A DNA stretch of 64,000 nt from positions 3,038,001-3,102,000 of the forward strand of contig NZ_CP058334.1 of assembly GCF_013391085.1 (NCBI RefSeq), written 5' to 3'. The notes beneath the pieces are model-generated. The model was given only the letters and a program-made list of their open reading frames with translations, was not told the origin of the DNA and made no database searches. Positions 9,344 to 9,702 of this stretch are shown here, piece after piece (within the stretch, counting starts at the first letter, position 1; each line of letters opens with the position of its first letter). Source of the DNA: Natronomonas halophila. Lineage in GTDB: Archaea; Halobacteriota; Halobacteria; Halobacteriales; Haloarculaceae. The position numbers and the translations under genes were made by a program.

Positions 9344-9346
9344 GAC

Positions 9347-9500
9347 GGGCCGAGAGGGATTTGAACTGGAGCAAGACGGTCGGCCTCGCTTCGCTCGTCT
9401 CGCGTGGTTCAAATACCCCTGCCGTTTTCCTCGTCGTGAATGCCCGAGGAGCGCTCCGCTGATGCTCCGCGCTACTCGGTGTAATACTCCTCGGAAAAGC
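9347..9500. repeat. tRNA-Lys 3'-end cassette 1 (tRNA fragment plus inverted repeats)
   Basis: The first 20 bases (9347-9366) are identical to the 3' end of the tRNA-Lys gene at 9629-9702. An inverted, imperfect copy of part of it (GTTCAAATaCCCC, 9407-9419) follows, so the first 73 bases can fold back. The rest of the cassette contains an 11-bp inverted repeat with one mismatch (9444-9454 with 9469-9479) framed by TTTTCC (9425-9430) and GGAAAA (9493-9498). The cassette runs 154 bp to the next tRNA fragment. It encodes no credible protein. Confidence 0.75.
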
Positions 9501-9628
9501 GGGCCGAGAGGGATTTGAACTGAAGAAAGACGTGCTCACTCGCTACGCTCGCTGCGCGCGCCTTTCAGAGTTCAAATCCTCTCTTGGCTATTCCTCGCGC
9601 TCACGAGATAGTTCGCGCGAGGAAGTAG
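9501..9628. repeat. tRNA-Lys 3'-end cassette 2 (tRNA fragment plus inverted repeats)
   Basis: This is the second tandem unit. Bases 9501-9520 repeat the same 20-base tRNA 3' end. An inverted arm at 9569-9583 (AGTTCAAATCCTCTC) pairs with the start of the unit, with one extra G. A perfect 10-bp hairpin follows: TTCCTCGCGC at 9591-9600 with GCGCGAGGAA at 9615-9624. The unit then runs directly into the real tRNA-Lys gene. The two cassettes differ in internal sequence but share the same plan. Confidence 0.75.
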
Positions 9629-9702
9629 CGGGCCGAGAGGGATTTGAACCCTCGACCGACGGCTTAAGAGGCCGTCGCTCTCCCTGACTGAGCTATCGGC
9701 CC
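9629..9702 (-). tRNA. tRNA-Lys (anticodon CTT)
   Basis: Read on the minus strand, the acceptor GGGCCGA (from 9702) pairs with TCGGCCC, the D arm is GCTC/GAGC, the anticodon stem is ACGGC/GCCGT with loop CTCTTAA (anticodon CTT), and the T arm is GAGGG-TTCAAAT-CCCTC. It is 74 nt with a G discriminator, has no encoded CCA and no intron. Its 3' half is the parent of the two tandem fragments on its downstream side. Confidence 0.95.

Follow-up and report, generated by a model that had tools for sequence, protein, structure and literature searches.

Gene-less hairpin units stacked behind haloarchaeal tRNA genes: a candidate family of tRNA-targeted integrative cassettes

The window, by which we mean the whole stretch of 64,000 nucleotides analysed, comes from a single-contig haloarchaeal genome of 3.21 Mb. 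It carries a tRNA-Lys(CTT) gene followed by two short units, whose features are collected in Table 1. The initial annotation had described the 3' end of this tRNA as present in three tandem direct copies, and this is what we find: the exact repeat GTTCAAATCCCTCTCGGCCCG starts at 9344, 9498 and 9627, and the unit lengths of 129 and 154 bp equal the start-to-start spacings of the exact copies. Three such 20-mers inside approximately 300 bp cannot be a product of chance. Read on the tRNA strand, the order is tRNA, hairpin H1, inverted T-loop (A'), loop hairpin (l2) and tail copy (A2). Each unit has a second hairpin of its own, the two are unlike inside (loop identity 38%), and the window holds no PF00589 match, all ten PF00589 matches of the genome lying elsewhere; on these three points, the last of them claimed as the absence of an integrase, the initial annotation was right. 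An inverted copy of the tRNA fragment, which it had also placed in each unit, is indeed present in both, though not as the whole 20-mer and reliably only for approximately positions 52-64. Folded as DNA, the 280-nt unit region beats 200 of 200 dinucleotide shuffles (z -3.7), and folded as RNA together with the tRNA it gives a z of -7.3. The motif GARCGNAGYGA, which corresponds to the GA-flanked triloop of the family described below, occurs twice in the whole window, once per unit, and shuffles give the same number.

Table 1. The tRNA-Lys(CTT) gene and its two units, in window coordinates. R1 and R2 are the covariance models described in the text.
Feature	Position	Strand	Evidence
Host gene, tRNA-Lys(CTT)	9629..9702	(-)	ARAGORN; Rfam RF00005, 71.6 bits
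Copy A1, the tail (positions 52-73) of tRNA-Lys(CTT) itself	9629-9650	(-)	tRNA numbering
Unit 1, tRNA-proximal, 129 bp: H1, inverted T-loop, loop hairpin and tail copy	9500..9628	(-)	R1, 87.4 bits at 9505-9586
H1 hairpin of unit 1, CTTCCTCGCGC-GA-AC..GT-GA-GCGCGAGGAA	9590..9628	(-)	Sequence; predicted fold is a hairpin
Inverted arm A' of unit 1, GCCAAGAGAGGATTTGAACT	9569..9588	(-)	Inverted repeat; predicted to pair with the tail copy
Conserved covarying loop hairpin (l2) of unit 1	9522..9568	(-)	R2, 48.5 bits at 9525-9566; covariation
Direct tRNA tail copy A2 of unit 1, 21/22 identical	9500..9521	(-)	Repeat search
Unit 2, distal, 154 bp, loop unlike that of unit 1	9346..9499	(-)	R1, 49.3 bits at 9351-9423
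H1 of unit 2, long nested hairpin	9425..9499	(-)	Predicted folds
Inverted arm A' of unit 2, CGGCAGGGGTATTTGAACCA	9405..9424	(-)	Inverted repeat
Loop hairpin of unit 2, shorter divergent type with GAGCGAAGCGAG cap	9368..9404	(-)	
Direct tRNA tail copy A2 of unit 2, 21/22 identical	9346..9367	(-)	Repeat search

Similar units lie behind other tRNAs of the same genome, as found by BLAST of this genome and by reading the 450 nt downstream of all its 41 tRNA genes. The tRNAs concerned are Lys(TTT), Lys(CTT) x2, Thr(CGT), Gly(TCC), Val(TAC) x2, Phe(GAA), Arg(CCT), Tyr(GTA) x2, Leu(TAA) and Leu(TAG). The ends of these units fit the local tRNA, and the middle is common to all. Nine of them were used for a covariance model, R1. 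Because R1 includes T-loop sequence and might be biased towards tRNAs, the loop alone served as the basis of a second model, R2, which has no tRNA sequence. R1 found units in 55 of 60 relatives, with up to 35 per genome. For R2, 29 of the 30 best matches in five genomes were located behind tRNAs, the 30th being a site between nuo genes. When 247 genomes of the phylum were scanned with R2, matches were obtained in 41 of the 45 genomes of the same order and in none of approximately 202 more distant ones, where unlisted genomes were counted as distant since the list runs by kinship. In a pattern scan of 84,980 species genomes, 79 of 80 loci among the matches listed were haloarchaeal. Judged from these sequence searches, the family is common among haloarchaea and, on the genomes covered, appears restricted to them. 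About 28 tRNA species act as hosts, and most copies lie on the tRNA-sense strand directly after the tRNA. A search for the same unit beside other haloarchaeal tRNA genes had been suggested in the initial annotation, which itself had overlooked the genome-wide and haloarchaea-wide extent of the family and the matching of the inverted arm to each host tRNA.

Units of the family are approximately 100-160 bp long and carry no genes; the following statistics are based on about 190 parsed units. The borders of the tail copy are sharp, at tRNA positions 52/53 and 73 (189 units). Agreement with the host tRNA is 0.90-1.00 over positions 52 to 73 and falls to the shuffled level, or close to it, at positions 51 and +1; the duplicated block thus comprises 20-22 nt from the T-loop to the discriminator base. 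All 22 positions are identical in 138 of 191 units, from 28 tRNA species. Over positions 52-62, the inverted arm matches the reverse complement of the tRNA at 0.69-0.99. Arm position 57 fits its own tRNA in 95% of the units compared with 51% when shuffled (z 12.4), position 63 is also above shuffles (z 7.6), and in total this is the case for positions 52, 57, 59, 60 and 62-65 and not for the acceptor stem. By this comparison the arm evidently spans approximately positions 52-64 and changes along with the host tRNA. The possibility that the entire tRNA tail is present as an inverted copy was rejected, the match being limited to that stretch.

The loop has the consensus CTNNNAGTCGC ... CGTCTN'N'N'TCC, where NNN and N'N'N' are perfectly complementary in 104 of 153 distinct loops, and a C(GNA)G triloop flanked by GA/GA ends 90 of 182 distinct loops. 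The core sequence of the units is GGTTCRAATCC. In an alignment of 39 sequences we counted 94 doubly changed cells versus 30 in shuffles, none of 500 shuffles being as high, and two base pairs show three or four Watson-Crick types; the nine-sequence set from the own genome likewise covaries. No match above the gathering score except tRNA was found in Rfam 15. Loop similarity is set neither by the tRNA nor by the genome, as the mean identity is 0.57 for the same tRNA, 0.51 for the same genome and 0.54 for neither, and near-identical loops are found at different tRNAs in different genera. On these comparisons, loop cores assort freely among tRNAs and genomes. A single-stranded form with a preferred strand was also considered and rejected, as the folding energies, for RNA as for DNA, do not tell the two strands apart.

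Behind the tRNA-Lys(CTT) of congeners there are 0, 1 or 2 units: none at loci L123, L130, L133, L136 and L137, and one or two at the others. Locus L122 has two tail copies 162 bp apart, its relative L123 only one. The zero-unit loci could have lost their units by recombination between tail copies, or could never have been filled. The insertion that is clearest is an off-target one in the own genome, where the segment ACACCCCCGGTGTCGAGCATGAGTAGATGAGTCGCAGCC..GGAACGTCTTATCGTA is located between two genes assigned as nuo by sequence reading. The segment is flanked by CTCATG(C)GAG and CTCATGGCGAG, approximately 11 bp are duplicated, and 11 congeners have the empty junction. Inside the segment is an inverted copy of the target, GAGCATGAG, even though the target is not a tRNA; this single case suggests that insertion is the step at which the inverted arm arises or is selected. 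Tail copies decay with distance from the tRNA. In 16 of 43 arrays the proximal copy is the better preserved one, in 3 the poorer one (p=0.004). Loops inside one array mostly differ. Because of this polarity and the differing loops, most tandem units look like separate events; near-identical adjacent units were found in the arrays L091, L204 and L164.

The hairpins also occur in other contexts. Halorubrum-like genomes carry the H1-H2 pair within a dispersed structured repeat away from tRNAs as well, approximately 400 bp long and present in at least 10 copies per genome, after a TTTATAA-like box (loci L299-L308 and L310-L317 in genomes G209, G264 and G119). This repeat contains the conserved blocks GACGAGGCTGGGGAGG, GGGACTCAAAGGGGCAG and GGCTGGGGCTTTGG and many variable hairpins, has no Rfam match, and is possibly an undescribed multicopy RNA. 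The occurrence of the pair away from tRNAs means that the hairpin is not solely an attachment site. A second non-tRNA context is found in Halorubrum halodurans (L159:280-420), where an H1-loop pair is inserted in the palindrome CAGTCGCGA..TCGCGACTG directly after a dispersed-repeat copy. Full units are present on plasmids of Natronorubrum bangense and Haloarcula halophila, both at tRNAs, and haloarchaeal plasmids elsewhere carry shorter 21-30-mers like the units. Given the dispersed repeat and these plasmid sequences, the hairpins may be general modules, maybe RNA. At L262, L263, L265 and L266 (near 2501-2530) a plasmid 30-mer, GCGCGCAGCGACCG..GAGCGAGCACG, resembles the unit loop; some copies are near TFB genes, and the hairpin context is unlike that of the units.

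Three further arrangements were observed. A plasmid of Haloarcula halophila carries at least 22 tRNA genes, and in one of these, a tRNA-Cys, the T-arm is interrupted by H1-A'-loop with no tail copy (L264:2427-2569); the gene for a TROVE-domain protein is located approximately 1 kb downstream. As read from the sequence, this supports the T-loop as entry point and shows that the tail is not restored in every case. In Halorubrum alkaliphilum (L198:2832-4784), 1.8 kb with an apparent MNT/HEPN gene pair lie between tRNA-Ala(GGC) and a unit. At L087 and L210 a unit follows a truncated tRNA-Gly(TCC) of which the part from about the anticodon onward is present; this arrangement probably marks the right end of a larger element that entered the gene at its anticodon when a unit was already in place.

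The sequences show the structure and distribution of the units, their match to the target, the copy borders, the polymorphism, one insertion and the polarity. We consider the units to be tiny gene-less integrative cassettes of haloarchaea that have the T-loop and 3' tail of tRNA genes as attachment site, with a probability of roughly 0.6. A review of archaeal tyrosine recombinases (PMC8371274) gives the T stem-loop and 3' end of tRNAs as regions that are used, and mentions that the att sites bound by PaXerA are stem-looped. The sharply bounded block that runs from the T-loop to the discriminator base favours a crossover in the T-loop, for which an incoming element has to supply the remainder of the tRNA, and the copy borders together with this literature favour short gene-less elements and a recombinase in trans. 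By analogy, integration probably occurs through a tyrosine recombinase acting in this manner. The chemistry, circular intermediate and enzyme that we infer are as follows. A circular or single-stranded copy carrying the tail would recombine at the T-loop (G53/T54). The incoming tail would rebuild the tRNA and the old tail would stay at the far end of the unit, and since new units would enter beside the tRNA, arrays would grow outward. The A'-loop-A2 hairpin would be the recognised site, comparable to a folded integron attC, with the recombinase supplied in trans and not by the unit.

The proposal of the initial annotation is supported in part. Repeated insertion with a tail copy left each time fits the sharp borders, the 0/1/2 polymorphism, the nuo insertion, the differing cores in one array and the decay of tail copies; the site-specific recombination in that proposal is deduced, and no enzyme was identified. 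The contrary result, a plain duplication of the tRNA region with relatives free of target-copy structure, was not found. More speculatively, the units may form a gene-less integron-like system of haloarchaea, in which a common hairpin would gain tRNA-complementary arms, or swap cores between tRNA-specific arms, and would stack at tRNA tails driven by a chromosomal recombinase; we hold this extended version only tentatively.

Every genome counted has some tyrosine recombinase. The number of units does not correlate with that of PF00589 proteins (Spearman -0.14, p 0.35), and the PF00589 counts pointed to no genome-specific candidate. The integron integrase TIGR02249 was not found over cut-off in 14 unit-rich haloarchaeal genomes. 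One integrase of the own genome is located directly downstream of tRNA-Arg(GCG). The unit hairpin as an end marker of integrase-bearing elements was rejected, as no R1 match was present at such a far end in the own genome. Virus-borne att sites were likewise rejected, the pattern scan of IMG/VR giving two chance matches only, inside a phage terminase-like gene. A phage collection gave tRNA-like matches or none, and no units, and no circular form or autonomous parent was found in IMG/VR or in this collection.

Several known systems share features with the units. The archaeal tRNA-targeting tyrosine-recombinase elements (SNJ2, SSV and pT26-2 families) also have the tRNA 3' part as target; the gene is restored by a tail copy, both ends carry direct repeats, and tandem occupation is possible. 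The units differ from these in having no genes, in being too short for an integrase (100-160 bp versus kilobases), in one covarying hairpin being fitted to about 28 tRNAs, and in the inverted T-loop arm. Casposons (Methanosarcina) insert at tRNA 3' ends with target duplication as well, but carry Cas1, and their terminal inverted repeats are not known to be matched to the target, whereas the units are gene-less with a target-matched arm. The core boxes of attC are GTTRRRY / RYYYAAC, compared with GTTCRAA in the units, where the fourth position is C. Gene cassettes of integrons, with their attC sites, have also been reported from archaea (PMC9668308). They resemble the units in forming arrays that grow at one fixed end, in that each unit ends in an imperfect, structurally conserved hairpin, and in having the crossover sequence in the hairpin stem; the units differ in that there is no cassette gene and, in the 14 genomes scanned, no integron integrase, and that the target is a tRNA gene instead of attI. 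The PATE, MITE and SMR repeats of Haloquadratum walsbyi are small, gene-less, palindromic and haloarchaeal, and the mobilisation of SMRs is unexplained as well (PMC3119063). They differ from the units in that the target is duplicated here and that tRNA-tail targeting is not described for them, a separation made by description and not by sequence. By analogy, the units would act most like tRNA-targeted integrative elements, with a folded site and polar arrays like integron cassettes; they fail the defining features of integrons, of PATE/SMR repeats and of autonomous integrative elements. In the open-access papers searched, tRNA-tail duplications appear only as traces that prophages or larger insertions leave (PMC3119063), and no description of the family was found; as the search covered open-access literature, novelty is provisional.

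An RNA role is the main rival, although we find it unlikely. The units would then be modules of structured RNA whose transcription accompanies or follows that of the tRNA, and would serve as a trailer or as processing, decay or regulatory RNA. Their arm would be antisense to the T-loop and pair with a decoy tail copy, and the covariation would reflect RNA function and not recombination. The strong covariation and compact conserved fold agree with this, as do the prevalence of tRNA-sense copies right behind the tRNA and the hairpin pair in the Halorubrum repeat following the TTTATAA-like box. On the other hand, units are found at different tRNAs per species and are missing at the same tRNA in congeners, one copy is inserted between nuo genes, there is no Rfam family, and we see no obvious RNA reason for an exact 22-nt tail copy. 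We consider it improbable that each unit is what remained of a larger ordinary integrative element after a deletion had removed its genes, with H1 and A'-loop as the two attachment arms. Direct repeats of the tRNA tail are what integrative elements leave (PMC8371274), and the MNT/HEPN-like pair in the 1.8 kb of L198 would suit such an origin. However, the H1-like hairpin there still adjoins A', which places the cargo outside the unit; moreover, nearly all units are tiny and follow one common plan, and in the own genome no R1 match lies at the far end of an integrase-bearing element.

Plain tandem duplication, by replication slippage or tail-copy recombination with hairpins arising by template switching, would account for the near-identical neighbours in L091, L204 and L164, but loops differ in most of the 43 arrays, the copy borders fall at defined tRNA positions, and slippage cannot yield a conserved foreign loop. 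As sole cause it is largely refuted and most improbable; it remains as a secondary process. Equally hard to credit is movement of MITE-like or PATE/SMR-like elements by a single-strand Y1 (IS200/IS605) transposase. Hairpins, small size and haloarchaeal hosts would fit, and the SMR-A of Haloquadratum is approximately 110 bp long and SMRs enter palindromes, but PATEs and SMRs have no target duplication (PMC3119063), compared with 20-22 bp duplicated here. Dependence on this transposase is not supported, since 17 of 41 unit-bearing genomes have no PF01797 match, where loss after insertion is possible, and a correlation is absent.

Genes for tRNAs are classic docking sites of mobile DNA, and to our knowledge the elements that dock there bring an integrase of their own and are each fitted to a single tRNA. 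In the present family one gene-less hairpin plan fits about 28 tRNA species across a whole archaeal class. If the insertion reading is true, there would be a mobilising enzyme to find, together with a way for an element to acquire its match to the target. If instead the RNA reading is true, a common undescribed RNA module would lie behind archaeal tRNAs. Either reading could be tested in Haloferax or Halorubrum.
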